DNA from: Caulobacteraceae bacterium
GTDB lineage: Bacteria > Pseudomonadota > Alphaproteobacteria > Caulobacterales > Caulobacteraceae
Length of the DNA stretch: 35,478 bases
Assembly: GCA_031291685.1 (NCBI GenBank)
Contig: JARLIP010000111.1
Location: 1 to 35,478, forward strand
Direction of reading: 5' to 3'
Numbering within the stretch: position 1 is the stretch's first letter; every line of letters begins with the position of its first letter. Below the pieces are notes generated by a model. That model did not search any database. It was not told the origin of the DNA and saw only the letters and a list, made by a program, of their open reading frames with translations. The position numbers were made by a program, and so were the translations under genes. Below are positions 2,956-31,418 of this stretch, in pieces.

Positions 2956-4383
2956 ATGCCCGTCACCCGCGCCTATCGCCCCGACCCCCGGTTCATGACC
3001 CTCGGCGAGGACTTCGCCGATCCGGCCCGGCCGGCGGCCTTTCCCCGCTCCGAGATCCGCTTTCGCAATAACCGGGCCGCCGCCACGGTTGGCCTGGAGG
3101 GCCTGAGCGACGTCGAATGGGTGGCCGCCTTCGCCCGGTTCGAGCCCCTGCCGGACAATCAGCCCCAGCCGTTGGCCATGCGCTATCACGGCCACCAGTT
3201 CCGCAACTACAACCCCGACATTGGCGATGGGCGCGGCTTTCTGTTCGCCCAGCTGCGGGAGGCGGGGACGGAGCGGCTCCTGGATCTCGCCGGCAAGGGG
3301 TCTGGCCGCACGCCCTGGTCGCGCAATGGCGATGGCCGGCTGACCCTCAAGGGCGCCGTGCGCGAGGTGCTGGCGGCGGAGATGCTGGAAGCCCTGGGCG
3401 TGCCCACCAGCCGGGCCTTTTCCCTGATCGAGACGGGGGAGGCTCTGCATCGGGGGGACGAACCCAGCCCGACCCGCTCGGCGGTGCTGACCCGCCTGTC
3501 CCACAGCCATATCCGGTTCGGGACCTTCCAGCGGCAGGCCTATTTCAACCGCGCGGACAATATCACCCGCCTGATCGACCACGCCGCCGAGGCCTACTAT
3601 CCCGAGATCCTGCCCTTCGAGGGCGAGGAACGGGCTCTGGCCCTGCTGCGAGTGGTGCTGGCGGCCTCGGCCCGGCTGGTGGCCCGCTGGATGGCCGCCG
3701 GTTTCGTGCATGGGGTGCTCAACACCGACAACCTCAACCTCACCGGGGAAAGCTTCGACTACGGCCCCTACCGGTTTCTGCCGCGCAACGATCCCAACTT
3801 CGTCGCCGCCTATTTCGACGAGGGCGGGCTCTACAGCTTCGGCCGCCAGGCCGAGGCGGTGTTCTGGAACCTGAACCAGCTGGCCAGCTGCCTGACCCTG
3901 GTGGCCGACCGCGAGGCCCTGATCGAGATCCTGAAGGACTTCGCGCCGGCCTATCGGCGAGAACTGGCGGCGGCCATGCTGCGGCGCCTGGGCCTGAAGA
4001 GCCGTTCCCCCGACGAGGACGTGGATCTGGTCAACGCCGCCTTCCGCGCCCTGGCGGCGGGCGGCGACGCTCAAGGCTGGGAGCCCTTCTTCTTCGACTG
4101 GTTCGGCGGCGCCGCCTCGGCCCAGCGCGCCCTGGCCGGCCCCCGGTCCTTGCTCTATGCGGACGAGGCTTTCGCCGATTTCCGCGAGAAGCTGGCGGAT
4201 TTCGAGGCGGCGGCGCCCGAGCGCCTGGCCGATCCTTATTTCGCCCGGAGCGAGCCCGAGACCTTGCTCTATGACGAGATCGAGGCCCTGTGGGCGCCCA
4301 TCGCCGAGCGCGATGACTGGGCCCCGTTCCACGCCAAGGTCGCCGCCATCCGCCAGGCCGGGGCGGCGTGGGGCCTGGATTAG
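2956..4383 (+). CDS. selO: SelO family protein adenylyltransferase (pseudokinase AMPylase)
   Basis: A 475-residue protein of the SelO/YdiU family (UPF0061), pseudokinases that transfer AMP to Ser/Thr/Tyr of protein targets and act in redox defence. Visible signatures are RYHGHQFRNYNP near 76-87, the phosphate-binding KGSGRTPWSRNGDGR (Lys114), Glu137, NTDN (256-259) and the metal aspartate of DYGPY (Asp268). The length matches E. coli SelO (478). The chosen ATG at 2956 has a GGAGA site four bases upstream; a TTG 12 codons earlier is open but lacks such a site. The C-terminus ends GAAWGLD, without the C-terminal cysteine or selenocysteine seen in some relatives. Confidence 0.93.
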   Translation: MPVTRAYRPDPRFMTLGEDFADPARPAAFPRSEIRFRNNRAAATVGLEGLSDVEWVAAFARFEPLPDNQPQPLAMRYHGHQFRNYNPDIGDGRGFLFAQLREAGTERLLDLAGKGSGRTPWSRNGDGRLTLKGAVREVLAAEMLEALGVPTSRAFSLIETGEALHRGDEPSPTRSAVLTRLSHSHIRFGTFQRQAYFNRADNITRLIDHAAEAYYPEILPFEGEERALALLRVVLAASARLVARWMAAGFVHGVLNTDNLNLTGESFDYGPYRFLPRNDPNFVAAYFDEGGLYSFGRQAEAVFWNLNQLASCLTLVADREALIEILKDFAPAYRRELAAAMLRRLGLKSRSPDEDVDLVNAAFRALAAGGDAQGWEPFFFDWFGGAASAQRALAGPRSLLYADEAFADFREKLADFEAAAPERLADPYFARSEPETLLYDEIEALWAPIAERDDWAPFHAKVAAIRQAGAAWGLD

Positions 4384-18513: not shown

Positions 18514-19761
18514 TTATTGTCGAGTTCCATCGACTGTCGCCCCGCGGGGCCGGGTTCGGGCGGACACCGCGGTCGCTAAGGCGGCCAGGACGAACAGGGC
18601 GGCGGCCGTCGCCAGGGCGGGCTTCATGTTGGTGTCGGTGGCGAAGGCGCCGGCGGCGAGGGGGCCGAGGCTGGCGCCGAGCAGGGTCGCCGCAGGCCCG
18701 TACATCGGCGCTCGCCGCGTGGGATCGGCCGCGATCAGCAGCGGCAGTCCCAGGGAAAGAGCGACGGTCCAAAGCAACCCGAACGCCACGGTCGCGGCCA
18801 CGAACGCGGCTTGTGAAGACGGCCAGGCAAAGACCGCGGTGACGGCAAGGAAGGCGGCGGCGGTCACCAGCAGGCCGGAAACCGGCTTCACCCAGCGGTC
18901 GAGGGCGACAATGGCCGTGGCGCCCACGACCTGGGCGCCGAGGGAGGCGGCGATGGCCAGTGAGACCACCTTGTCCTGGATGTGGATGGTGTGAGCGATC
19001 GGTTCCACATAGACCCAGACCCCCACGATGCCCCCCATCATCAGCAGGCCCGACGCCAGCCCCGTCATGCTCGAGAGCTGCAGACCGGACCCTTGCTTCA
19101 TCTCCGCCGGCGGCTCTGGGAGCCGGTTTGGGATGAGCAGCAGGAGCGGGAGCGTCAGCAACGCCCCGCCACCGATGACAAATAGTCCGCTGTTCGCGCC
19201 CAGCACTGGCCCAAGGGTGATCGGCACGAGGGCGGCGACCGCGCCCTGGCTGAGCGCCTGGGCCCCGAGGAAGATGGCGTTGACGCGGCTCGCGTCATGG
19301 CGGCGAGTGATCAGGCCGACCGCGATCCAGACGATGACGCCGGCGGCGGCGCCGGCCAGCCCGCGGCTCAGGACGAAGTCCAGCCCGCTGGTGACCGCGC
19401 CCATCCCGTTCGCCAGGATGAGGAGAAGGGCGCCCGCCAGGCCCCAGAGACGCAGTCTTCGGTGAGGAACCCGCGCCGCCATTCCCGCGGACACGACGCC
19501 AAGGGCGAGGGTCTCGACGGTCGCCGCCAGGCCCATCTGCGGCACCGACAGCCGCCCGGCGGCCTGCAGGGCGCCCAACACGATCGGCTGGACGCCCAGC
19601 ATCAGCAGCCCCACGCACCCCATGACGATGACCGACGTCACTCCCCTGGCGGGAATGGGGGCCGTGGCGGCGTGCGGGTCGTGCAACCTGTCCGGCGGCG
19701 TCATCTCGGCGATCACCCCCGGCAATGCCAGGTCCACCGTCAGTTCAGGCTCGTGCGGCAT
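18514..19761 (-). CDS. MFS transporter, 12-helix type
   Basis: A 415-residue inner-membrane protein with about twelve hydrophobic helices in two halves, and the pattern of drug/sugar efflux (DHA/arabinose-efflux-like) permeases: a loop after the second helix contains ARVPHRRLRLWG, close to the family motif A (GxxxDRxGRR-like, degenerate). The first 40 residues are a hydrophilic cytoplasmic leader. The ATG at 19761 has AAGGGG eight bases upstream. It is divergent from the acid-sugar kinase gene, so it may move the same substrate or an intermediate, but direction and substrate cannot be read from the sequence. The 220 bases between it and the tRNA hold nothing I recognise. Confidence 0.88.
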   Translation of the reverse strand: MPHEPELTVDLALPGVIAEMTPPDRLHDPHAATAPIPARGVTSVIVMGCVGLLMLGVQPIVLGALQAAGRLSVPQMGLAATVETLALGVVSAGMAARVPHRRLRLWGLAGALLLILANGMGAVTSGLDFVLSRGLAGAAAGVIVWIAVGLITRRHDASRVNAIFLGAQALSQGAVAALVPITLGPVLGANSGLFVIGGGALLTLPLLLLIPNRLPEPPAEMKQGSGLQLSSMTGLASGLLMMGGIVGVWVYVEPIAHTIHIQDKVVSLAIAASLGAQVVGATAIVALDRWVKPVSGLLVTAAAFLAVTAVFAWPSSQAAFVAATVAFGLLWTVALSLGLPLLIAADPTRRAPMYGPAATLLGASLGPLAAGAFATDTNMKPALATAAALFVLAALATAVSARTRPRGATVDGTRQ

Positions 19762-20207
19762 GAGCGCCCCTTCTCTTTATTCTGCTGGCCTTGTGCGATG
19801 GGTGATCGCGTCAGTTCCTTGGCGCGTTCGGGCCAGATCGCTTCCTGAGCATTCAAGGTGTCAGACGTCGCCCCTCGCCCAATTTGTTGGGTGGACGCTA
19901 ACACGGCGGTTTTTGCGGCATCAACTTTAAAGTCGTTGTATGTCGGGTTTTGGCTCGTGGCGAGCACGCTAGTATTGTGGGGTGGGCGTCGTCGAGGCGG
20001 CGTCGGCGCCGTTTCGAGAATATTTATTAGTTACTGAACAGTATCGGAAATTTTCGCCCATCATATGAGGCGATCTGGCTCGACCTGAGGCGCTATCGCT
20101 ATCGGAATTTCGGTGTCCGTCACCGTTAAAATCGGATAATTGTCGAGTTAAGAAATTCACGTGCCGAAGCCGAAGCGGGTTCTTACGGCCAGGGGAGGGT
20201 GTTGAAA
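19762..20207. promoter_or_regulatory. Divergent intergenic region between MFS and acid-sugar kinase genes
   Basis: About 446 bases, clearly richer in A+T than the flanks, especially 19920-20160. It holds no convincing ORF. Two copies of a candidate regulator motif are seen: GTATGTCGGGTT at 19938-19949 and TGTCGAGTTA at 20141-20150. The latter is identical to 23142-23151 in front of the TonB receptor. Promoters for both flanking genes must lie here; I could not place -10/-35 boxes with confidence. Confidence 0.6.
20141..20150. promoter_or_regulatory. Candidate operator, shared TGTCGAGTTA motif
   Basis: An exact 10-base match to 23142-23151, lying 58 bases before the likely kinase start. With one extra base on the left (TTGTCGAGTT) it differs at a single position from 23024-23033. 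Confidence 0.45.
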
Positions 20208-21494
20208 GTGCTCGAACTCGCGGTTCTGGCGGACGATCTGACCGGCGGCATGATCATCGCCAGCAAGCTGGAAGCGGCGGGGATCGCCTGCCCGTTGGTG
20301 ACCAGCACCGAGGAATTCCTCGCTCTGCCGGGCGACCCCACGGCGGTGGTGCTTGCGCGAAAGATCCGTCTGGTGGCCCCCGCCGAAGCGCGCCTGGAAG
20401 CCGAGGCCGCCGCCGCGGCGTTCATCAGGCGCGGCGCGAAAACGATCTTCTATAAGTACAGCGCCCTGTTCGAATCCACGGACCAGGGCAATATCGGACC
20501 GATCGCCGAGGCCTTGCTGGCCTCGACCGGGGCGAAGCGGACCATTTTCTGCCCCGCGTACATCGACCGCGGCCTGACCCTGTACAAAGGGAACATCTTC
20601 GTCGGATCGACCCTTCTGTCGGAGACCGCCAAGCGGTTCGACCCCATGACGCCGGCCACCACCTCGGATGTCGTCGCCAAGCTTCGCCGTCAAACCACCT
20701 GGCAGGTGGGGCTCGCGGATCATCAGATGCTGACGGGGGAGGCGGCAGCGATCGCGGCGGCCCTGGAGGCGCAGCCGGAAGTTCCCTTCTGGGTGATGGA
20801 CGCCGTCGACGAGGCCGATGTCGCGAAGATCGCGGCGGTGACCCGCGACTGGCCCCTTGTGACCGGAGCCGACTCCCTGCCGCCGGCCATCATCCACGAT
20901 CGGCGCGGGCGCGCGTCGGCGGAGCCTGGCAGCGGCCGTCGCCTTCTGCCGGGCGTTTCCGGAGGCGAGGCGGTCATCGCCGGCAGCTGCGGCGTGGCGA
21001 CCATGGCGCAGTTGGAGGCGTTCGCCGAGAGGCGTCCCGTATGGCGCATTGAGCTGGCGCGTGATGCGGAAAAGGAAGACCTGGTGGACAGCATCGCCGC
21101 GTGGGCGGCCGACCGGCTGCCGGAGGGTCCGGTGGCGATCGCCACAACGGCCGACCCCGCCGGGGTCGCCGCCGCTCAGGCGGCGTTCGGGCGGGAGGGC
21201 GCCTCGAAGCGCGCCGACCGGATCCTGGGTGAGCTGGCCGTCCGGCTTCGCGACCTCGGCGTCGGTAAGTTCGTGATCTCGGGCGGTGAGACCTCCGGCC
21301 AGGTGCTGAAGGCCCTGGATGTCGGGCGACTTGAGGTCGCGGCCTACGATGATCTCCATGGCGGCTACTGTTACGCGCCGGGGGCAAGGCCAGCGTCCTT
21401 CGTCCTCAAACCGGGCGGCCTTGGTGATCAACAGTTCCTGTTCAATGCGCTCCATCGCCTGCGCGAGGCAGAGCGCCAGTCTGCGGAAGGTTAA
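20208..21494 (+). CDS. Four-carbon acid-sugar kinase family protein (DUF1537, OtnK/DtnK-like)
   Basis: About 428 residues. The N-terminal substrate domain (PF07005) opens with AVLADDLTGG, carrying the conserved double Asp; the C-terminal nucleotide-binding domain (PF17042) contains FVISGGETSGQVLKAL and a Gly-rich end (PGG). The family phosphorylates four-carbon acid sugars such as 3-oxo-tetronate, D-threonate or erythronate with ATP. The start is uncertain: GTG 20208 has GGAGG nine bases upstream; GTG 20199 and TTG 20202 are in frame but too close to that site. The next gene is a class II aldolase, matching the OtnK-OtnC order of characterised tetronate pathways. Confidence 0.9.
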   Translation: MLELAVLADDLTGGMIIASKLEAAGIACPLVTSTEEFLALPGDPTAVVLARKIRLVAPAEARLEAEAAAAAFIRRGAKTIFYKYSALFESTDQGNIGPIAEALLASTGAKRTIFCPAYIDRGLTLYKGNIFVGSTLLSETAKRFDPMTPATTSDVVAKLRRQTTWQVGLADHQMLTGEAAAIAAALEAQPEVPFWVMDAVDEADVAKIAAVTRDWPLVTGADSLPPAIIHDRRGRASAEPGSGRRLLPGVSGGEAVIAGSCGVATMAQLEAFAERRPVWRIELARDAEKEDLVDSIAAWAADRLPEGPVAIATTADPAGVAAAQAAFGREGASKRADRILGELAVRLRDLGVGKFVISGGETSGQVLKALDVGRLEVAAYDDLHGGYCYAPGARPASFVLKPGGLGDQQFLFNALHRLREAERQSAEG

Positions 21495-21501
21495 GCGCAT
21501 C

Positions 21502-22149
21502 ATGACGATGGGATCGGAGACCGCGGCGCGGGCCAGGCTCGTGCAGGCTTACAAGGAGGTGGTCGGCCTGGGGCTGACCGAACTCTCCTCGGGCAATATC
21601 AGCCTGCGCTACGGGGAGGGGATGCTGATCTCGCCGACCGGGGCGACCGGCGAGACCATCAACGAGGACAACGTCGTCTATGTCGGGCCTGACGATCGTT
21701 GGGAGGCGGGGCTGAGGCCTTCAAGCGAGTGGGAGTTGCACGCCCGCGTTTACCGCTGCGGCGCGGACACCAACGCCGTCGTCCATACCCATTCGGACTT
21801 CTGCGTGGCGGTCGCCTGCCACTGCAAACCGCTGCCCGGTTTCCACTATCTGGTGGGGGTGTTCGGCGGCGACGATGTCCCATGCGTCCCCTACAACACC
21901 TTCGGCAGCGAAGCCCTCGCCATCGACGTGGCCGAGGCCCTGAAGGCCCGCACGGCCTGCCTGATGGGCAACCACGGCGCCACGGCGCGAGGGCCGACCA
22001 TGGAGGCGGCGATCAAGGGCGCGCACCGCCTGGAGATCTGCTGTCGTCAGTATATCCACGCCCTTGCCCTGGGCGAGCCGCGCCGGCTGACGCCGACGGA
22101 ATTCGAGGACTTCCACCGGCGGATTGGAACGTCCGGATACGCTAAATAG
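21502..22149 (+). CDS. Class II aldolase/adducin family protein (OtnC-like 3-oxo-tetronate 4-phosphate decarboxylase)
   Basis: A 215-residue zinc-dependent class II aldolase-fold enzyme. Motifs: SSGNISLR (29-36), ISPTGA (43-48), SSEWELH with the catalytic Glu76, HTH zinc ligands His95 and His97, and the third ligand His158 in MGNHGA. Related enzymes are L-fuculose-phosphate aldolase and, when next to a DUF1537 kinase, OtnC, which decarboxylates 3-oxo-tetronate 4-phosphate to dihydroxyacetone phosphate. The neighbour makes OtnC-like activity the best guess. The ATG at 21502 lies seven bases after the kinase stop, with GGAAGG inside the kinase end. It converges with the TetR gene, leaving five bases between the stops. 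Confidence 0.88.
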   Translation: MTMGSETAARARLVQAYKEVVGLGLTELSSGNISLRYGEGMLISPTGATGETINEDNVVYVGPDDRWEAGLRPSSEWELHARVYRCGADTNAVVHTHSDFCVAVACHCKPLPGFHYLVGVFGGDDVPCVPYNTFGSEALAIDVAEALKARTACLMGNHGATARGPTMEAAIKGAHRLEICCRQYIHALALGEPRRLTPTEFEDFHRRIGTSGYAK

Positions 22150-22154
22150 CCGTT

Positions 22155-22958
22155 TCAGCGTGTTGCGCGGCGGCGTCTGCCGGCGGGGCTCTTGGCCGGG
22201 GGGGCGGGCTGCGCCGCGGCGACGGGTTCCGATTCGACGGTCGCGTGTCGCGCTATGGATTCCGGCGCGCGCAAGGCGATCGTGTTGGGCAGGAAGGTCG
22301 ACATATAGGCGAGGGCCGCGCGCAGGCCCTCCTTGGCGTGCTTGGGCGTGATGCGCCCGTGCTTGGCGTAGGACGCCGCCCAGACCCCGTCATAGATCGC
22401 GAAGGTGATGGAGAACTTGAAGGCCGGATCGCGGACGTAGGGCATCTCGAAGAACCGGTCCATCGACTTGTAGGTGCTGGCCGCCAGATTATCTATGTCC
22501 TCGAAATCGAGCCTTCTGACGTCGGACAGTAGGGCCATGCCCAAGAATAGCTTCAGCGCATTCTGGCTGCCGTTGAAATACTCGACGACGCGATAGTAGC
22601 GGAGCGCGACAAGATCGTGCCAGTGCTCCAACGCTTCGTGGTCGATGGGCTCGTCGAGCGCCGTGTGCATGGTCTGCAGATAGCGCTCGGCCAGCCCGAG
22701 GAAGACGGATTCCTTGGTCGGGAAGAAGTGATAGGTCGAGGTCGGCGGCACGTCCGCGGCGTGCGCGACGTCGTAGAGGCTGATGTCGTTGATGTCGCGA
22801 TCCCGCAGCAGGGCGTCGGCCGCATCCAGAAGCGCGATAACCCGAGTCTGGCCTCGCTTTTGAGCCGGCCGCCGGCCCGGCGCCGTGGGGGACGGCGCGG
22901 AATTCTTCTCGGCGATCTGGCCCATGCGGCTTGGCGGTCCTTCTTTGCGGCGCGCCAC
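22155..22958 (-). CDS. TetR/AcrR family transcriptional regulator
   Basis: About 256-267 residues. The N-terminal helix-turn-helix domain is clear (TRVIALLDAADALL, then DISLYDVAHAADVPPTSTYHFFPTKESVFLGLAERY). A C-terminal ligand/dimer domain of about 150 residues ends in a Pro/Ala and Arg-rich tail (AGRRRRATR). The start is uncertain: GTG 22958 or ATG 22925, 11 codons later; neither has a strong ribosome site. It is divergent from the TonB receptor gene across 325 bases holding three copies of the motif TTGWCGAGTT or its complement, so it likely controls itself, the receptor and perhaps the kinase operon. Confidence 0.9.
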   Translation of the reverse strand: MARRKEGPPSRMGQIAEKNSAPSPTAPGRRPAQKRGQTRVIALLDAADALLRDRDINDISLYDVAHAADVPPTSTYHFFPTKESVFLGLAERYLQTMHTALDEPIDHEALEHWHDLVALRYYRVVEYFNGSQNALKLFLGMALLSDVRRLDFEDIDNLAASTYKSMDRFFEMPYVRDPAFKFSITFAIYDGVWAASYAKHGRITPKHAKEGLRAALAYMSTFLPNTIALRAPESIARHATVESEPVAAAQPAPPAKSPAGRRRRATR

Positions 22959-23283
22959 CCATTCTATCGCGGCTCACCGTGTGCAGCACAAGTGACGCGG
23001 AAGGATCGGTCAAGAGTCAATTATTGACGAGTTTGACGTGTGGCAGTCTTGCGACAGGTTCGCCGGATTCTGCGAACTTCTCACATTCTCGGTGATTCCG
23101 GCCCCGGGCTCGGTGGAACGGGTTGTTGCAAATCAGACGTATGTCGAGTTAGCTAGCCGGTGACACAGGCGAAAACTAAGGGAATGCCGCAGGTTCCGGC
23201 CTCGTCTCCCTGAAAACTCGTCAAGTGTCGAAAATTAAGCGGAAAAGCAGACCGCGAGGGCGGTCCCGAGGGGGAATCAGGAA
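22959..23283. promoter_or_regulatory. Divergent promoter region between TetR and TonB-receptor genes
   Basis: 325 bases without a gene. It contains a perfect dyad GTCAAT-T-ATTGAC at 23016-23028, TTGACGAGTT at 23024-23033, TGTCGAGTTA at 23142-23151 and AACTCGTCAA at 23215-23224, which is the exact reverse complement of 23024-23033. These repeated elements are the best candidates for TetR-family operators. Confidence 0.6.
23016..23033. promoter_or_regulatory. Candidate TetR operator, dyad plus shared motif
   Basis: The 13-base perfect palindrome GTCAATTATTGAC (6-1-6) overlaps the motif TTGACGAGTT. Position and symmetry fit an operator for the adjacent TetR-family gene. Confidence 0.5.
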
Positions 23284-25659
23284 ATGTCCGTCGTTCAGCA
23301 AATATCCGGCCGCCGCGCTGGCCTGTTCGCGGCCACCGCCGTCGCGGCGCTCTTGGGGGGCGTTGACGCGGCCCAAGCCCAGACCCAGGCGGGATCGTCC
23401 GCGCCTCAGGTCCAGGAAGTCGTGGTCACCGCCCAGCGGCGAAGCCAGAACCTCCAGGAGGTTCCGGTCTCGGTCCAGGCGCTCTCTGGCAAGGAGCTGC
23501 AAACCGCCGGCATCAAGAGCACGCAGGATCTCGGCCAGATGACGCCGAACGTGACCATCATCAGCCCGATCGGCCAGGGCAACCAGCCGCTGATCACCAT
23601 CCGCGGCATCGGCCTGAACGACTTCGACACCAACAACGCCGGTCCGAACGGCGTCTATGTCGATGACGTCTATATCAGCGCCCCATCGGCGCAGTCTTTC
23701 GCTGTGTTCGACCTGGCGCAGGTGCAGGTGTTGAAGGGACCGCAGGGCACCCTGTACGGGCGTAACACCAGCGGCGGCGCGGTGGTCTTCACCTCCAACA
23801 AGCCGACCGACTACTTCACTGGCGACCTGCATCTCGAATATGGAGCGTTCAACACGCTCCAGGTCGCGGGCGCCGTCGGCGGCCCGATCGCGTCCAACCT
23901 CTCCGGCCGGGTGTCGGTCGTGGTCAACCACTCAGACGGTTATAACAAGAACGCCTACGCTGGCGGCGATCCGATCGACAACGTCAACAACGAATCCGTC
24001 CGGTTGCAACTGCTCTATAAGCCCAACGACAAGCTGAAGCTCTACTTTGAGACCATGGATGGCTACGTGCGCAACCGCCCGCAGCCCTATGGCCACATCG
24101 GGACCTACGCGCCGGGCACCCAGGGCCTCGACCCGAACTCCCAAAAAAATCCTCCGATCAAATGCACCCCCGCCCAGGCCATGGCCGGCGGCTGCGTCGA
24201 TCTGTTCGGCTTCGGCACGCAACGGCAATGGTCGGGCTCCTACAACCGGTCGCAGGATCTGACCAACTTCGTCTCCATCAACCAGATCCGAGCGGATTAC
24301 GACCTCGGCCCGGCCGTGCTGACCTCGATCACCTCGTACCAGTACGACGACAAGTTCCATCCCGAGGAGACCGACGCCAGCCCGAACAACCTGCTCAGCG
24401 CGACCTACGGGGTGAAGTCGGACACCATCACCCAGGAAGTCCGCCTGGCGCACACCTCGAAAACATTCAACTGGGTCGTGGGCGGCTTCTATCTGCATGA
24501 GAGCCTGCGCCAGAACCAGCCGCTTGACCTGTTCGGCGACGGCGACCTGTTCGGTGGTTTCGGCAACCCCGCCCGCTCCGGCGCCTTCGACGGCATCGCC
24601 CAGCGATCATACGATCATAGCAAGCAGGTCACGGACAGCTACGCGGCGTTCGGCCAGGCCGACTACACCTGGGACAAGCTGACCCTGACGCTCGGCGCCC
24701 GCTACACCTGGGAGAAGAAGGCGTTCGACTACGATGGCTCGACGCAATATCAGGACGGCGGCATGGGCCACTACGGCCCGCTGAGCTATATCCCCCACTA
24801 TGCCAATTCGAAGTCCTGGTCGAACGTCACCTGGCGGGCGGCCCTCAGCTACCATTTCACCCACCAGATCCAGGCCTATGCCAGCGTCGCGACCGGGTTC
24901 AAGAGCGGCGGGTTCAATGGCAGTTTCCTGAGCAACGATCCGCAGCAGGTGCTCCTCCAGTTGCAGCCGATCAAGCCGGAAATGGTCACCGCCTACGAGA
25001 TTGGCGAGAAGGCCACGCTGTTCGACCGCCGGGTGAACTTCAACGTCGCGGCCTTCTATAACGACTACAAGAACGAGCAGATCTTCGCCACCGTGCCGCA
25101 GACCCTTACAACGGGCAACGGTCAGCAGATCCAGACCACGACACAGCTGCTGACCAATGCGCGCAAGGCCCATACCGAGGGCGTGGAGATGCAGATCACC
25201 GCCGCGCCGTTCCACGGCCTGATGATCGACCTGCAGTCGGCCTGGCTGCGAACGCGCCTGGACGATGCGAGCCTGCCCCTGTTTGGTGGCGGCGCCTCCT
25301 CACTGAACGGCAATGAACTGGCCAACGCGCCGCACTTCACCTTCAGCGGGGTGGTCGACTACAAGCTGGATCTGGCCGGCGGGGACGACATCAACTTCCG
25401 TTGGAATTCGAACTACCGCAGTCACGTGTGGTTCGACTCGACGAACGACCCGTATATTCAGCAGTCGCCCTATTGGGTGCACAATCTGAACATCGACTTC
25501 GAGTCCCGCCAGGGCTGGATCGCTGGCGTGTTCGTCCGCAACGTCGCGGACACGAAATACGCCCTCACCGCGACCGACCTTTCAGTCCCCTTCGGGCTCA
25601 TCGAGCCGGTCTATGGCGCTCCGCGCACCTACGGCGTCGAGCTTAGCTACCACTTCTGA
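23284..25659 (+). CDS. TonB-dependent outer-membrane receptor
   Basis: A 791-residue receptor. A signal peptide (about 1-30, ending in DAAQAQ) is followed by a TonB-box-like EVVVTAQRR, a plug domain with PNVTI, RGIGLNDF, GVYVDDVYI and the typical VEVLKGPQGTLYGRN-like stretch (here VQVLKGPQGTLYGRNTSGGAV), then a long beta-barrel ending in ELSYHF with terminal Phe. It imports a large or scarce substrate across the outer membrane using energy from TonB. The subfamily resembles receptors of sphingomonads and caulobacters used for carbohydrates and plant or terpenoid compounds rather than siderophores; this is an inference. The ATG at 23284 has an AGGA site. The neighbouring TetR gene and P450 suggest a catabolic substrate. 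Confidence 0.95.
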   Translation: MSVVQQISGRRAGLFAATAVAALLGGVDAAQAQTQAGSSAPQVQEVVVTAQRRSQNLQEVPVSVQALSGKELQTAGIKSTQDLGQMTPNVTIISPIGQGNQPLITIRGIGLNDFDTNNAGPNGVYVDDVYISAPSAQSFAVFDLAQVQVLKGPQGTLYGRNTSGGAVVFTSNKPTDYFTGDLHLEYGAFNTLQVAGAVGGPIASNLSGRVSVVVNHSDGYNKNAYAGGDPIDNVNNESVRLQLLYKPNDKLKLYFETMDGYVRNRPQPYGHIGTYAPGTQGLDPNSQKNPPIKCTPAQAMAGGCVDLFGFGTQRQWSGSYNRSQDLTNFVSINQIRADYDLGPAVLTSITSYQYDDKFHPEETDASPNNLLSATYGVKSDTITQEVRLAHTSKTFNWVVGGFYLHESLRQNQPLDLFGDGDLFGGFGNPARSGAFDGIAQRSYDHSKQVTDSYAAFGQADYTWDKLTLTLGARYTWEKKAFDYDGSTQYQDGGMGHYGPLSYIPHYANSKSWSNVTWRAALSYHFTHQIQAYASVATGFKSGGFNGSFLSNDPQQVLLQLQPIKPEMVTAYEIGEKATLFDRRVNFNVAAFYNDYKNEQIFATVPQTLTTGNGQQIQTTTQLLTNARKAHTEGVEMQITAAPFHGLMIDLQSAWLRTRLDDASLPLFGGGASSLNGNELANAPHFTFSGVVDYKLDLAGGDDINFRWNSNYRSHVWFDSTNDPYIQQSPYWVHNLNIDFESRQGWIAGVFVRNVADTKYALTATDLSVPFGLIEPVYGAPRTYGVELSYHF

Positions 25660-25670
25660 TCTGAACCCGA

Positions 25671-25706
25671 GGACGCGCGCGGTGACCCCGCGCGCGTCCG
25701 ATTTTC
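25671..25706 (+). terminator. Strong hairpin between TonB receptor and P450 genes
   Basis: A perfect 12-bp GC-rich stem (25671-25682 with 25688-25699), loop TGACC, followed by GATTTTCG. It fits an intrinsic terminator for the receptor transcript, or a processing/attenuation point if the P450 gene is co-transcribed; the P450 ATG is only 18 bases after it. Confidence 0.8.
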
Positions 25707-25723
25707 GTTGCGGAGACCTACCG

Positions 25724-27043
25724 ATGCCTGCTGACAACGCCCCTTCCGCACCGCGGGTTCTCGATGTCGGCGCCCTGCCGACGCTCGAGGAATACGGCTA
25801 TACGGGCGGTCGTCAGAGCTTCCACACCTTCTGCGAACGCGTGTTCGCCCCTGGCGGACCGCGCTTCCTGCGCAGCGCCGATGGCGCGCTGGCGGTGTTC
25901 CGCCATGCCGACATCCGCGCCCTTGGCGCCGCGCCGGACATGTCGACCCTTGCGCCCGCCGTCCTCTTCCCAGGCCTCCTCGACGGCCCCACCCCAGCCA
26001 CAGATCGTCCGGGCTTCGCGGTCGCGGATCTGCTCAAGAACCAGCTCTTCACCACCAATGCGCCGCTCAATCCAGCGCTTCGCAAGGTGCTGCTCAACCA
26101 GATCGGGCCAAAGCAGGTCGCGGCCCAGGCGGATCGGACGCGCGCTATCGTCGCTGACCTGCTGGGCGCCCTGCCGCAGGGCGTTCCCGTTGATTTCGTG
26201 CGGCAGGTCGCCGAGCCGCTGATCGGGCGCTTCTGGGGCGGGCTGTTGGACATGCCGGACGACGAGGCGGAGGCGGCGGCGGTGGAGGCGCGTCAGATGA
26301 GCCCCATGCTAAGTCTGCGCCCCGATCCCAAGGCCGGCGCCGACATCGACGCCGCGGCCCGGGCCTACCGCGCCCTCGTTCAGGGGGCCGCGGACCGCGC
26401 CCTGGCCAAGGGCGGATGCCCGTTTGTGGCGGGCGTCGCCAGGGACCTGTCGGCGATCGACATCGGCGACGACCTGGGCCACGTCGGGTTCGTCCCGAAA
26501 TCCGCGGGGGCGTTCCTCAGCGGCAATCTGTTCGATGGTTTCCATACCGCCGTGCTGGGGGTGGCCAACACCCTGTACGCTCTGCTGCGGCGGCCGGAGG
26601 TGCTGGAGGAAGTGCGGCGGTTCCCCGAAAAGGCCGCGGCGGCGGTCGCCGAATGTCTGCGACTGGAGCCTCCGGTGATTCAGCTGAGCCGCCTCACCAC
26701 AGCGGAGATCGTCTATGACGACGTGGTGATTCCCAAGGGGGTTTTGGTGACGATCATGTGGGGCGTGGGCAATCACGATCCTTCGGCGTTCCCTGACCCC
26801 GGGACGTTCGACCTCGATCGTCCGCAGCAGGGCGCGACCATGTTCGGCGGCGGCGCGCACATCTGTCCGGGGCGGTTTGTGGCTCTGCTCGCGGCGCGGT
26901 CCATGGTTGAAGTCCTGGCCGCCAGCGAGTTCAATGTGGCGCCCGCCTCTGACGAGAACTATTGGCTTTCTGGCAGCGCCATGTCGCAGCTCGTCCACCT
27001 GCCCGTGTTCCTTGAGAAGACCGCCCTGGGCGCCGCGAGCTGA
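25724..27043 (+). CDS. Cytochrome P450 with atypical I-helix
   Basis: A 439-residue soluble bacterial P450. The haem-binding loop FGGGAHICPG has its ligand at Cys381, and the ExxR motif is ECLR (Glu310, Arg313). In the I-helix, where most P450s have (A/G)Gx(D/E)T for oxygen activation, this protein has DGFHT (271-275): the acidic residue is His274 while Thr275 is kept. It normally would hydroxylate or epoxidise a small hydrophobic compound with electrons from a ferredoxin, but no ferredoxin or reductase gene is near. The ATG at 25724 has GGAG eight bases upstream. It follows the TonB receptor by 64 bases with a hairpin between. Confidence 0.93.
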   Translation: MPADNAPSAPRVLDVGALPTLEEYGYTGGRQSFHTFCERVFAPGGPRFLRSADGALAVFRHADIRALGAAPDMSTLAPAVLFPGLLDGPTPATDRPGFAVADLLKNQLFTTNAPLNPALRKVLLNQIGPKQVAAQADRTRAIVADLLGALPQGVPVDFVRQVAEPLIGRFWGGLLDMPDDEAEAAAVEARQMSPMLSLRPDPKAGADIDAAARAYRALVQGAADRALAKGGCPFVAGVARDLSAIDIGDDLGHVGFVPKSAGAFLSGNLFDGFHTAVLGVANTLYALLRRPEVLEEVRRFPEKAAAAVAECLRLEPPVIQLSRLTTAEIVYDDVVIPKGVLVTIMWGVGNHDPSAFPDPGTFDLDRPQQGATMFGGGAHICPGRFVALLAARSMVEVLAASEFNVAPASDENYWLSGSAMSQLVHLPVFLEKTALGAAS

Positions 27044-27273: not shown

Positions 27274-28239
27274 TTATCCGTGGTGATGATCGGGCGGCGG
27301 CTCCACGCAGCGCTTGAGCAGATCGCGCAGCCAGAGCAGTTCCGGTTCCTCTGTGCGTCCGCGACTCCAGACCATGACCAGTTCCAGGTCGGGGAACGGC
27401 AGGGGGCAGGGGCCGATGCGAAGGGGAAGGCCCTCCACGACGAGTTGGGCCAGGCTGCGAGGCGCCAGCACGATGCAGTCGGAACGGGCCGCGATCAGGG
27501 GCAGCACGGTGAAGTCCGAGGTCAGGATACGGTTGAACTGATCAATCCCGTGCTCGATCAGATAGCCGTGCTCCAGGCTGGCGTGGGCGCTGAGGTCTAG
27601 GTGAAAGCTGGCGTGGGGCCGGGCGAGATATTCCTCGGCGGTGAGTCCCCGGGCGAAGGCCTCGTCATCCGCCCGCCCCAGGCAGACGAAGGGTTCCCGG
27701 GTCAGGGGCTCGAACGTGAATTCGCGCATCAGGTTGGGCGCGTCATAGATCCCCGCCTCGATGATCTGGCGGGGGGAGATGATCATGTCGATATTGCCGG
27801 CGCGCAGGTCAGCCACGGACTGAGCCCGGGCGGTCACCATCTGCACCGTCATCCCCGGCGCGTCGCGTCCCATGATCGCCGCCATCCGCGGCGCGGTGAT
27901 CGCGGTGACATAGTCCGCCGTCGCCACCCTGAAGCGGCGTCTGTCGATGGCGGGTTCGAAGCGGGTGTTGGCCAGCACCCGCTCAACGGCGGACAGGGCG
28001 CGCTCGAGGGGCTCAATGAGCGACTTGGCCTTTTCCGTCAGGCGCAGGGTCCGGCCGTCGCGCACCAGCAGTTCGTCGTCGAAATGGGCCCGCAACTGCC
28101 GCAGGCTGTTGCTCACGCCGGACTGGGTGATGTTGAGCTCCGCCGCCGCCTTGGTGAGGTTGCGGTGCTTCAGCACGGCCCGCAGCACTGGCAGCAGATT
28201 GAGGTTGGTGCTGCGCAGACTGCGTTCGAGCGGGTCCAT
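27274..28239 (-). CDS. LysR-type transcriptional regulator of the aromatic (NahR/NodD-like) class
   Basis: 321 residues. The N-terminal winged helix-turn-helix is clear: LNLLPVLRAVLKHRNLTKAAAELNITQSGVSNSLRQLRAHFDDELLVR. A periplasmic-binding-like effector domain follows (about 95-305). The N-terminal wording LNLLPVLxAVLxxRNLTxAAxxLNxTQSxVSxxLxxLR is that of regulators of aromatic catabolism and NodD. The ATG at 28239 is preferred over a TTG 12 codons upstream. It is divergent from the flavin hydroxylase gene, and an ATC-N9-GAT palindrome lies between, so it most likely activates the meta-cleavage operon in response to an aromatic inducer. Confidence 0.93.
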   Translation of the reverse strand: MDPLERSLRSTNLNLLPVLRAVLKHRNLTKAAAELNITQSGVSNSLRQLRAHFDDELLVRDGRTLRLTEKAKSLIEPLERALSAVERVLANTRFEPAIDRRRFRVATADYVTAITAPRMAAIMGRDAPGMTVQMVTARAQSVADLRAGNIDMIISPRQIIEAGIYDAPNLMREFTFEPLTREPFVCLGRADDEAFARGLTAEEYLARPHASFHLDLSAHASLEHGYLIEHGIDQFNRILTSDFTVLPLIAARSDCIVLAPRSLAQLVVEGLPLRIGPCPLPFPDLELVMVWSRGRTEEPELLWLRDLLKRCVEPPPDHHHG

Positions 28240-28264
28240 GGGCGATCTCTTTGAGTTGGAACGT

Positions 28265-28279
28265 ATCATTTTCAATGAT
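28265..28279. promoter_or_regulatory. Candidate LysR-type operator (ATC-N9-GAT, T-N11-A)
   Basis: ATCATTTTCAATGAT is a perfect 6-3-6 dyad in the 128-base divergent region between the LysR gene and the hydroxylase gene. It fits both the general LTTR box T-N11-A and the NodD/NahR-type ATC-N9-GAT. Confidence 0.7.
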
Positions 28280-28367: not shown

Positions 28368-29573
28368 GTGCCGACCGCAGCCATAGCCGTGACATGTGTC
28401 GCGCCCAGTGAAGCCGAATTGCTGGAGCGAGCCCGAAAGCTCGTCCCGGTCCTGCGTGAGCGGGCTCAGAAGGCCGAAGACAATCGCTCCCTGTTGCCCG
28501 AAACCCTGCGGGACTTCGTGGAGGCCGGTTTTTACCGAATCCTGCAGCCGGCCCTTTATGGCGGTTATGAAATGCCGCCCATCACCCTGTTCCGGGTGGC
28601 CATGACCCTGGCCAAGGGGTGTCCGTCCAGCGCCTGGTGCCTGTGCCTGGTGACCGTCCATAATTGGGAGGTCTCTCTGATGGATCCCCGGGCGGCGGAG
28701 GATCTGTGGAGCCAGGACCCCGAGGCTCGAATCTCCTCCTCCTACGCGCCCTTCGGTCAGATCACCCCGGTGGATGGCGGCTTCAGGGTTAGCGGGCGAT
28801 GGTCCTGGTCGAGCGGTTCGGATCACTGTTCCTGGGCGATCCTGGGCGGGGTCGCGCCCAGCCGCGAGGCGGGAGCCTTGCCAGATGTGCGGGCCTTTCT
28901 GATTCCTCGCGCGGACTATGAGGTCGTCGATGTCTGGAACGTGATCGGTCTGAAGGGGACGGGCAGCAATGACGTGGTGGTCAAGGACGCCTTTGTTCCC
29001 GAGCACCGCACCCACCAGTTCGTCCACTCCTTCCTGATGATGGACCCGGGGCGGGCGGTGTTCACCTCGCGAAACTACAAGTACCCCTTCGGCGTGATCT
29101 TCGCCTACAGCCTGTCGATCGTGACCATTGGCATGGCGGACGGCGCCCTGGAGACCTTCCGGGAGGACATGAAGGTGCGGCTCAGCGCCTATGACGGCGC
29201 CAAGGCCATGGACGATCCGTTCATCCGCCAGCGCCTGGCCGAGGCTGGGGCGATCATCCGCGGTCTGCATTCCCGGCTGGAGGCGAATTTCGCCGAGCTG
29301 GACGCCCTGATCGACGCGGATCAGCCGATCCCGGTGGAACTGCGGGTTCAGAACAAGTGGGACGCCCAGTGGATCGCCAAGGAGGCGCAGAAGGCCGTGG
29401 AGCTGTTGTTCAAGGCCAGCGGCGCCCGGGGCCTGAAGCTGGAGAGCCCGATGCAGCGCTACTTCCGGGACGTCCACGCCGCCTCGAACCACGCCTTCCT
29501 CAACGCCGACAAGGGCGCGCTCAACGCGGGCCTGGTGCAGCTCGGCGGGGGCACCACCGACTTCACCCTTTGA
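28368..29573 (+). CDS. Flavin-dependent monooxygenase, acyl-CoA dehydrogenase fold (HsaA/HpaB-like hydroxylase)
   Basis: A 401-residue group D flavin monooxygenase of the acyl-CoA-dehydrogenase fold. Recognisable are the helical N-terminal part, the middle stretch VSGRWSWSSGSDHCSWAILGG (sugar/flavin-site region), VIGLKGTGSNDVVVKDAFVPEHR, and the C-terminal RYFRDVHAASNHAF. This is the pattern of HsaA (steroid A-ring phenol hydroxylase) and p-hydroxyphenylacetate hydroxylase C2, not of true acyl-CoA dehydrogenases. It should ortho-hydroxylate a phenol to a catechol using reduced flavin from a separate reductase, which is not in the window. Start is GTG 28368 with GGAGG nine bases upstream. It is first gene of the meta-cleavage unit. 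Confidence 0.88.
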   Translation: MPTAAIAVTCVAPSEAELLERARKLVPVLRERAQKAEDNRSLLPETLRDFVEAGFYRILQPALYGGYEMPPITLFRVAMTLAKGCPSSAWCLCLVTVHNWEVSLMDPRAAEDLWSQDPEARISSSYAPFGQITPVDGGFRVSGRWSWSSGSDHCSWAILGGVAPSREAGALPDVRAFLIPRADYEVVDVWNVIGLKGTGSNDVVVKDAFVPEHRTHQFVHSFLMMDPGRAVFTSRNYKYPFGVIFAYSLSIVTIGMADGALETFREDMKVRLSAYDGAKAMDDPFIRQRLAEAGAIIRGLHSRLEANFAELDALIDADQPIPVELRVQNKWDAQWIAKEAQKAVELLFKASGARGLKLESPMQRYFRDVHAASNHAFLNADKGALNAGLVQLGGGTTDFTL

Positions 29574-29663
29574 GCGCGGTCCCGGGCCGCGGGGCGCCGC
29601 GCGCGCCTGGCGCCAACCCCATCCCGTGCGGGCGCCGCCATCCCCAGTTGAAAGAGATATCTC

Positions 29664-30542
29664 ATGTCCGTCATCGGTCTTGGCTATATCGGCCTGAACG
29701 TCAGCAATGTGGACGCCTGGAAATCATGGGCGTCCGACTTCCTCGGTCTCATGGCGGCGCCGTCATCGCCGTCCGGGACGCAGCGGCTGCGGCTCGACGA
29801 CTATGCCTGGCGGATCGCGCTGGAGCCCGGGGACAAGGACGATCTGGCCTGGATCGGGCTTGAGGTCGCCGGGCCGGACGAACTGGCAATGCTGCGGGCG
29901 CGGCTGGAGGCCGGGGGCGTCGCCGTGGAGGATGCGGATGAGGCCTTGCTGGCCGAGCGGGGCGTGGTTGGCCTGGTCCGCTGCCAGGACCCGGGCGGAC
30001 TGGGAGTCGAGCTCTATTATGGGCCGACCCACCTGACGCAGACGCCGTTCGTGTCCCCCGTGGGGGCCCGGTTCGTGACGGGAAGCCAGGGGCTGGGCCA
30101 TGTGGTGCTGGCCACGACCGATCTGGCCGGTTTTCGGCGCTTCTATCTGGACCTGCTGGGTTTTCGGCAGTCCGACACGATCCGCATGGCGATGGGACCA
30201 AGCTTCCACATCGACCTTGAGTTCTATTTTTGCAATCCGCGCCACCACACCCTCGCGGTCGCGCCCCTGCCGATGCTTCCACCCAAGCGCATGCATCACC
30301 TGATGGTGCAGGTGGAGACCCTGGACCAGGTGGGCTTCGCCCTGGACCGGGTGGGTCCGACCAACACCACGCTCACCCAGACGATAGGGCGGCATTCCAA
30401 CGACAAGATGGTCTCGTTCTACGTGGCCACGCCGTCGGGCTTTGAGCTCGAATATGGCTACGACGCCATTGAGGTGGACGCCCCCACCTGGAGCATGGCG
30501 CGTCACGACCGGATCTCCAGCTGGGGCCACCACCGCGTCTGA
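29664..30542 (+). CDS. Extradiol (meta-cleavage) ring dioxygenase, BphC/HsaC-like, VOC family
   Basis: 292 residues with two VOC-fold domains as in type I extradiol dioxygenases. Iron ligands by pattern: His146 (GLGHVV), His211 or 212 (RMHHLM) and Glu263 (GFELEYG). Second-shell catalytic residues also match the 2,3-dihydroxybiphenyl dioxygenase layout: His195 (RHHTLA), His244 and Tyr253 in the signature GRHSNDKMVSFYVATPSG. It opens the catechol ring next to the hydroxyls using O2. An ATG at 29664 follows AAAGAGAT. It lies 90 bases after the hydroxylase gene, across a GC-rich spacer. The product feeds the next gene's hydrolase. Confidence 0.94.
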   Translation: MSVIGLGYIGLNVSNVDAWKSWASDFLGLMAAPSSPSGTQRLRLDDYAWRIALEPGDKDDLAWIGLEVAGPDELAMLRARLEAGGVAVEDADEALLAERGVVGLVRCQDPGGLGVELYYGPTHLTQTPFVSPVGARFVTGSQGLGHVVLATTDLAGFRRFYLDLLGFRQSDTIRMAMGPSFHIDLEFYFCNPRHHTLAVAPLPMLPPKRMHHLMVQVETLDQVGFALDRVGPTNTTLTQTIGRHSNDKMVSFYVATPSGFELEYGYDAIEVDAPTWSMARHDRISSWGHHRV

Positions 30543-30584
30543 CGTCCGCCTTCAACCAATCCCTGGCAATTCCTGGAGCCCTCG

Positions 30585-31418
30585 ATGGCCGTTCAAATCA
30601 CCAGCCGCTTCGTCGAATTCGACGGGCTGAACATCCACTATGATGAGGCCGGCGCCGGCCCGGCCCTGATCTTCGTCCATGGGGGCGGACCCGGCTCGTC
30701 GGGCCTGAGCAACTTCTCGCGCAACATGGAGGCCTTCGCCGACCGCTACCGGGTGATCGCCATTGATCTGCCGGGCTATGGCCAGTCGACCAAGCTCAAG
30801 ATCTCCGAGCCCCTGTGGGGCTACTACGCCAAGGTTCTCGCCGGGTTCATCGACGCCCTGGGCCTTGGCAAGGCGCACCTGGTCGGTAATTCCCTGGGGG
30901 GCGCCTCCTGCCTGAAGACCGCGCTGGACTTCCCGGCGAAGGTTGATCGTCTGGTGCTGATGGGGCCGGGGGGCGGATATTCCCTGTTCGAAAAGCAGCC
31001 CAGCGATGGAATCCGCGCCTTGGTGACCTTCTATCTGCCGCCGGGGCCATCCATTGAGCGGCTCAAGGGCTTCGCCGAGTATCTGGTCCATGATCCCGCC
31101 TCCCTGACCGACGAGCTGTTGCAGGAGCGGCTCGACCGGGCGATGGAGCCGGATACGGCGCGGTTCATGCCCCTTCGCATCGGCCCCAACATGGCGCCCA
31201 TCACGGATCTGTGGCGCGAGCGGCTGGACCAGCTGCCGCACGAGACTCTGATCCTCTGGGGGCGCGAGGACCGGGTGAATCCCATGGATCAGGGACTGAT
31301 CCTGATGCGGCAGATCCCCAACGCGCGCTTTCTGGTGATGCCCAAGTGCGGCCACTGGGTGCAGTGGGAAAAGGCCGACGAGTTCAACCGCACCGTCGCC
31401 GCGTTCCTGGAGGGATAG
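30585..31418 (+). CDS. Meta-cleavage product hydrolase, BphD/HsaD-like alpha/beta hydrolase
   Basis: A 277-residue C-C bond hydrolase. HGGGPGSSG (32-40) is the oxyanion region characteristic of meta-cleavage hydrolases; the nucleophile elbow is GNSLGG (Ser103), and Asp229 (GREDRV) and His257 (KCGHW) complete the triad. It splits the 2-hydroxy-6-oxo-dienoate made by the extradiol dioxygenase into 2-hydroxypentadienoate and an acid. It starts 42 bases after the dioxygenase gene, completing a three-step unit: hydroxylation, ring opening, C-C hydrolysis. The lower pathway (hydratase, aldolase, acylating aldehyde dehydrogenase) is not in the window. Confidence 0.94.
   Translation: MAVQITSRFVEFDGLNIHYDEAGAGPALIFVHGGGPGSSGLSNFSRNMEAFADRYRVIAIDLPGYGQSTKLKISEPLWGYYAKVLAGFIDALGLGKAHLVGNSLGGASCLKTALDFPAKVDRLVLMGPGGGYSLFEKQPSDGIRALVTFYLPPGPSIERLKGFAEYLVHDPASLTDELLQERLDRAMEPDTARFMPLRIGPNMAPITDLWRERLDQLPHETLILWGREDRVNPMDQGLILMRQIPNARFLVMPKCGHWVQWEKADEFNRTVAAFLEG

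Follow-up and report, generated by a model that had tools for sequence, protein, structure and literature searches.

The question raised by this locus is whether a short sequence repeated in two intergenic spacers marks the binding sites of one regulator and, if so, which genes that regulator would join. The window (the whole stretch of DNA analysed, 35,478 nucleotides from a Caulobacteraceae bacterium) encodes an MFS transporter on the reverse strand (18514-19761, a weak match to Pfam MFS_1), divergent from a four-carbon-acid-sugar-kinase-like kinase (20199-21494, forward), which is followed on the same strand by a class II aldolase (21502-22149). The next gene, a TetR-family regulator on the reverse strand (22155-22958), is in turn divergent from a TonB-dependent outer-membrane receptor, identified by a profile match (23284-25659, forward), and a cytochrome P450, identified by Pfam (25703-27043, forward), that is probably co-transcribed with the receptor.

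The sequence-only reading had proposed that a 10-bp motif unites the kinase operon and the receptor in one TetR regulon. The five strings on which it relied were all confirmed, every one inside the two non-coding divergent spacers: TGTCGAGTTA at 20141-20150 and 23142-23151, TTGACGAGTT at 23024-23033, AACTCGTCAA at 23215-23224 and GTATGTCGGGTT, described there as a weaker copy, at 19938-19949. With up to one mismatch, TTGWCGAGTT occurs 5 times in the window against 1.4 expected (two of 100 shuffles reach 5). Genome-wide the pattern is rare, with 13 copies in 3.93 Mb and 24 for the reversed control. Nine of these copies are elsewhere in the genome, eight of them overlapping an ORF of 150 or more aa and the ninth near the end of contig C244. 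Three of the four window copies are located in the two spacers. The fourth, TTGTCGAGTT at 18517-18526, had been overlooked and lies within the MFS gene, at its 3' end.

The recurrence of the motif is thus real, but the 10-mer is too short as a unit, being half of aAAnTCGAcaattgTCGAnTTt, an imperfect palindrome about 22 bp long that was learned from the spacers of related loci with the window left out. For this we have used a palindrome-constrained EM on the spacers of loci that carry a TetR ortholog, which yielded aAActCGAcaattgTCGagTTt. The decisive run was restricted to the spacers of five ortholog loci, with the 35.5-kb window held out, and reached a score of 170.3 against 51.4-64.2 in 12 dinucleotide-shuffled sets. 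When this matrix was applied to the whole window, the top five matches were the five sites already mentioned (17.8-26.6), and the sixth-ranked, at 12.4, fell inside a gene. Since the two spacers account for about 2% of the window's length, finding all of the five best matches there is not due to chance. The same five were retrieved by a sequence-only Infernal model derived from the ortholog sites. A first EM run in which the number of sites was unlimited drifted into AT-rich sequence and was discarded, and a degenerate 20-mer proved too loose in the same genome (230 matches against 95 for the control, partly a TTCCCGGCGAATGCCGGGAT-like repeat).

The five predicted operators, all of them unstranded, are distributed over the two spacers as follows. 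O1 (AAAGTCGTTGTATGTCGGGTTT, 19929-19950; held-out score 21.4, Infernal 9.3 bits) is 167 bp upstream of the MFS start codon and may act on the kinase promoter as well; it contains the supposedly weaker copy, which is real and, taken as a whole site, ranks second-best in the window. O2 (AAATCGGATAATTGTCGAGTTA, 20129-20150; 26.6, rank 1) ends 48 bp upstream of the kinase start. In the other spacer, O3 (AGAGTCAATTATTGACGAGTTT, 23013-23034; 17.8, rank 5) ends 54 bp upstream of the TetR start, O4 (AAATCAGACGTATGTCGAGTTA, 23130-23151; 21.2, rank 3; Infernal 8.2 bits) sits in the middle, and O5 (AAACTCGTCAAGTGTCGAAAAT, 23214-23235; 20.9, rank 4; Infernal 9.0 bits) ends 48 bp upstream of the receptor start. 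The window sites vary and fall short of perfect symmetry, O3 also differing at its centre; the counterparts aligned with O3 in the ortholog spacers are AAGTCAATGATTGACGAATT and AGAGTCAATCTTTGACGACTT. The genome-wide scan was carried out with the Infernal model, the EM matrix having been applied to the window. The best match in the 3.93-Mb genome was 20129-20149, within O2, followed by C88:29699, yet its E-value was 2.5 and the motif alone is therefore insufficient.

A way to go beyond the motif is to examine the relatives of the regulator. TetR orthologs were 42-68% identical (64% in genome G004, 49% in G043, 44% in G002 and 61-68% over the aligned part in G401 and G425). The TetR ortholog of G004 and that of G043 are surrounded by the same set of genes, for MFS transporter, kinase, aldolase, P450 and receptor, at 46-82% identity, and the receptor is found in the G002, G401 and G425 loci at 64-72%. 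Gene by gene, the values beside TetR orthologs are 77%, 75%, 64%, 70% and 72% for the receptor and 71% and 64% for the kinase; in the same module of loci L039 and L040 they are 63% and 47% for the MFS protein and 58% (behind an operator spacer) and 46% for the P450. A class III aminotransferase gene lies near the TetR ortholog in all five genomes, giving a conserved module MFS-(aminotransferase)-kinase-aldolase-TetR-P450-receptor. The palindrome accompanies this module: as ortholog conservation would demand, sites are located at matching genes, specifically in the kinase/aminotransferase, TetR/P450, kinase/TetR, aminotransferase, aldolase/TetR and receptor promoters.

The same tendency extends to 16 more distant loci of the TetR subfamily. 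Matches scoring at least 16 were enriched 24-fold (p = 7e-8) in the 300-bp stretches that precede the genes for TetR, aminotransferase, receptor, MFS transporter and kinase, with 8 per 9.8 kb of such upstream sequence against 8 per 234 kb. For example, in Novosphingobium flavum (L054) a site lies 44 bp upstream of the TetR match, and another locus (L102) has two copies upstream of a receptor. No site was detected near TetR with the present matrix in five loci of the subfamily (L101, L060, L063, L064 and L042), as expected if specificity drifts; this fits such drift and is not proof of it.

The protein itself has the features of an autoregulator. It carries an N-terminal TetR_N helix-turn-helix (27.9 bits, curated cutoff 24), its AlphaFold2 model (mean pLDDT 83) is an all-helical TetR fold whose nearest PDB folds are EthR and FadR, which hints at a hydrophobic ligand for the modelled protein, and the palindromes O3-O5 occupy its own divergent promoter and are conserved in the orthologs. 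It shares with EthR/FadR-like autoregulated TetR regulons the TetR_N domain, the fold, the divergent self-operator and palindromes near promoters. No description of this regulator, its operator sequence, target set or pathway was found in the literature searched, and we regard it as a new regulon of a known kind.

We are therefore confident, on the sequence evidence, that the five predicted operators belong to the TetR protein encoded at 22155-22958 and form one autoregulated repressor regulon; this confidence concerns the regulator and its operators and does not extend to the pathway discussed below. The proposed union of kinase operon and receptor is well supported by the held-out footprinting, the conservation of the module and the control modules that lack this TetR. 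The two findings that the sequence-only reading had set against itself, a motif frequent throughout the genome and one absent from ortholog promoters, were both looked for, and neither was observed. Computation shows the palindrome directly: where it lies, that it is conserved at orthologous genes, and that homologous modules without the TetR subfamily do not have it. From what is known of the TetR family we infer dimer binding, repression and release by a ligand, with this TetR as the binder and the substrate or an intermediate as the inducer. Most likely, the ligand-free dimer would bind 48-54 bp upstream of the kinase-aldolase operon, of tetR and of the receptor(-P450) operon, and also upstream of the divergent MFS gene, repressing all of these targets, until a ligand derived from the imported substrate would release it. 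The MFS, kinase and receptor genes are likely members of the regulon.

An explanation of a different sort is that the palindromes are genuine operators of another regulator, such as a paralogous TetR, a PadR-type protein or the LysR encoded at 27274-28275 (Pfam), and that the adjacent TetR is incidental. The same genome has paralogous TetRs on C159, C178 and C24, one of them with a similar palindrome upstream (L045, score 20.5). A near-perfect palindrome, AANTCGAYAWWTRTCGANTT, searched with one mismatch in 390 genomes of the family, was present in 15, none of which has the TetR ortholog, and the one site of this type examined adjoins a PadR-type gene; the perfect form is therefore no marker of the regulon. 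More generally, similar near-perfect palindromes in other Caulobacteraceae adjoin unrelated genes, one of them of PadR type, so that sequence alone does not identify the regulator. Against this, several loci have sites within the promoter of the TetR gene itself, the occurrence of the sites follows that of the TetR subfamily, no PadR gene was identified in the window, and the LysR/HsaA spacer contains no site for the held-out matrix.

The operator was not found in four modules without this TetR subfamily (L133, L113, L117 and L118) that are homologous in aminotransferase and receptor. The one on a Novosphingobium capsulatum plasmid (L133) retains the receptor (60%), aldolase (60%), aminotransferase (54%) and P450 (41%), whereas its TetR is unrelated (22% over 129 residues) and its maximum operator score was 12.4; the other three have no site upstream of the aminotransferase and receptor. 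The operator therefore follows the TetR and not the enzymes, and we consider control by another regulator improbable. Still less probable is that the motif is a promoter element common to co-expressed genes, e.g., a TTGAC-type -35 box of the housekeeping sigma factor. TTGACG does resemble a -35 box described for Caulobacter, but a promoter scan gave no sigma-70-like promoter pairs around the sites, which face both ways and have the form of a conserved palindrome some 22 bp long, and the genome contains fewer copies of TTGWCGAGTT than of its reversed control. Recurrence of a 10-mer by chance or composition in AT-rich spacers, to which the raw count, just modestly above the shuffles, lends something, has a negligible probability and is refuted by the held-out motif recovering exactly the five sites, conserved at orthologous promoters.

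With the autoregulated TetR as the preferred reading, there is the matter of what the regulon is for. The "tetronate" or acid-sugar substrate suggested by the sequence-only reading is doubtful and probably wrong, given a kinase below cutoff, an aldolase nearest to FucA, a FumI-like aminotransferase in the module and a kinase that can be swapped. The kinase has both OtnK domains (SBD_N, 138 bits; NBD_C, 92 bits) and scores 282.3 against the NCBIfam 3-oxo-tetronate kinase (OtnK) equivalog cutoff of 350. The aldolase reaches 96.7 against the cutoff of 250 for 3-oxo-tetronate 4-phosphate decarboxylase (OtnC), and 163 and 174 against the fucA cutoffs of 400.25 and 264. This locus and the OtnK/OtnC erythronate/threonate pathway both combine, in a single operon, an SBD_N/NBD_C kinase with a partner of class II aldolase fold; they differ in that both window proteins fall below the cutoffs and that some copies of the module use a PfkB kinase. 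The closest solved relatives of the aldolase are L-fuculose-1-phosphate aldolases (FucA), and equivalents of Glu73, His92, His94, Tyr113 and His155 are present; we take Glu73 and Tyr113 of FucA to be catalytic and the three histidines to bind zinc. Unlike FucA, it belongs to a cluster without fucose genes.

In G401 and G425 a PfkB-type kinase adjoins the aldolase; the stretches of these genomes that were read showed no kinase of the SBD_N type. The replacement of an acid-sugar-type kinase by PfkB beside the same aldolase suggests that what the modules have in common chemically is a phosphorylation and then a retro-aldol cleavage. The aminotransferase of the ortholog modules has FumI as its closest solved relative (E 7.7e-137, against 7.4e-43 for GSAM), with 51% identity over 409 ungapped residues. 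FumI acts in the fumonisin catabolism of Sphingopyxis sp. MTA144 (PMC2933618; PDB 6hbs), a system that differs in that the window has no aminotransferase and the module has a kinase and a FucA-like aldolase in addition; the likeness does not imply a fumonisin substrate. Together these genes suggest that an aminopolyol, which may be sphingoid-like, is deaminated, phosphorylated and then split by retro-aldol cleavage.

In such a scheme the receptor and the MFS transporter would import the aminopolyol, the FumI-like aminotransferase (encoded outside the window) would convert it to a 2-ketone, the kinase would phosphorylate the CH2OH neighbouring the ketone, and the FucA-like aldolase would cleave the product to DHAP and an aldehyde. 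The series R-CHOH-CHOH-CHNH2-CH2OH to 2-ketone to 1-phosphate to DHAP plus aldehyde is consistent and unproven. The aminotransferase paralogs of the same genome, on C319 and C338, have no operator upstream, so that the regulon of the window is not extendable to them; with the aminotransferase outside the window and the assembly 81% complete, the scheme is therefore incomplete in its own genome. A possible, rather unlikely, elaboration is that the regulon would control a new route for 2-amino-1,3,4-polyol lipids (phytosphingosine-like), with TonB uptake, FumI-like deamination, phosphorylation of the CH2OH beside the new ketone by either of two unrelated kinases and FucA-like cleavage to DHAP and a long-chain aldehyde, the FadR/EthR-like TetR sensing a lipophilic intermediate.

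The locus provides a concrete proposed regulon with its operator for an uptake-and-catabolism module of Caulobacteraceae, and links particular enzymes to a TonB receptor. An aminotransferase, a kinase and a fuculose-type aldolase are conserved together, with the kinase swapped in some copies, and this trio points to a pathway that the labels of standard annotation ('tetronate kinase', 'siderophore receptor' and 'glutamate-semialdehyde aminomutase') would conceal. Past the P450 gene, the LysR gene is followed by HsaA/HsaC/HsaD-like meta-cleavage genes.

In the genome from which the window derives, a paralog of the window TetR (38%; locus L045, contig C159) has its own palindrome, ATTCCCGATATTTATCGGGTTA (3197-3218), about 100 bp upstream of the likely start of the gene, which suggests a related operator whose sequence has shifted. 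Near-perfect palindromes, similar to AACTCGACATATGTCGAGTT, were found recurrently close to genes of small membrane proteins (L121-L124, L131 and L132; other Caulobacteraceae), and the gene adjoining the palindrome in L124 is of the PadR type. A recurrent palindromic repeat resembling TTCCCGGCGAATGCCGGGAT was also seen on several contigs of the own genome.

Regarding the extent of the module, an aldehyde dehydrogenase that lies truncated at the edge of the contig (window 30-509) may belong to its pathway, since the protein is 72-85% identical to the counterparts in L041 and in the homologous plasmid-borne module of N. capsulatum. The HsaA/HsaC/HsaD-like meta-cleavage genes (28368-31418), located downstream, beyond the LysR gene, look like a separate regulon, as the operator is absent from their spacer in the window.

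At a contig end of the same genome (L113 on C319, 8036-11046), a second FumI-like aminotransferase (53%) is oriented divergently to a TonB receptor that is 57% identical to the one in the window. Another contig, C178, has at its start ATACACGACGCTCTTCCGATCT (14-35 of L046), similar to the end of an Illumina adapter, so this end of the contig may be contaminated.
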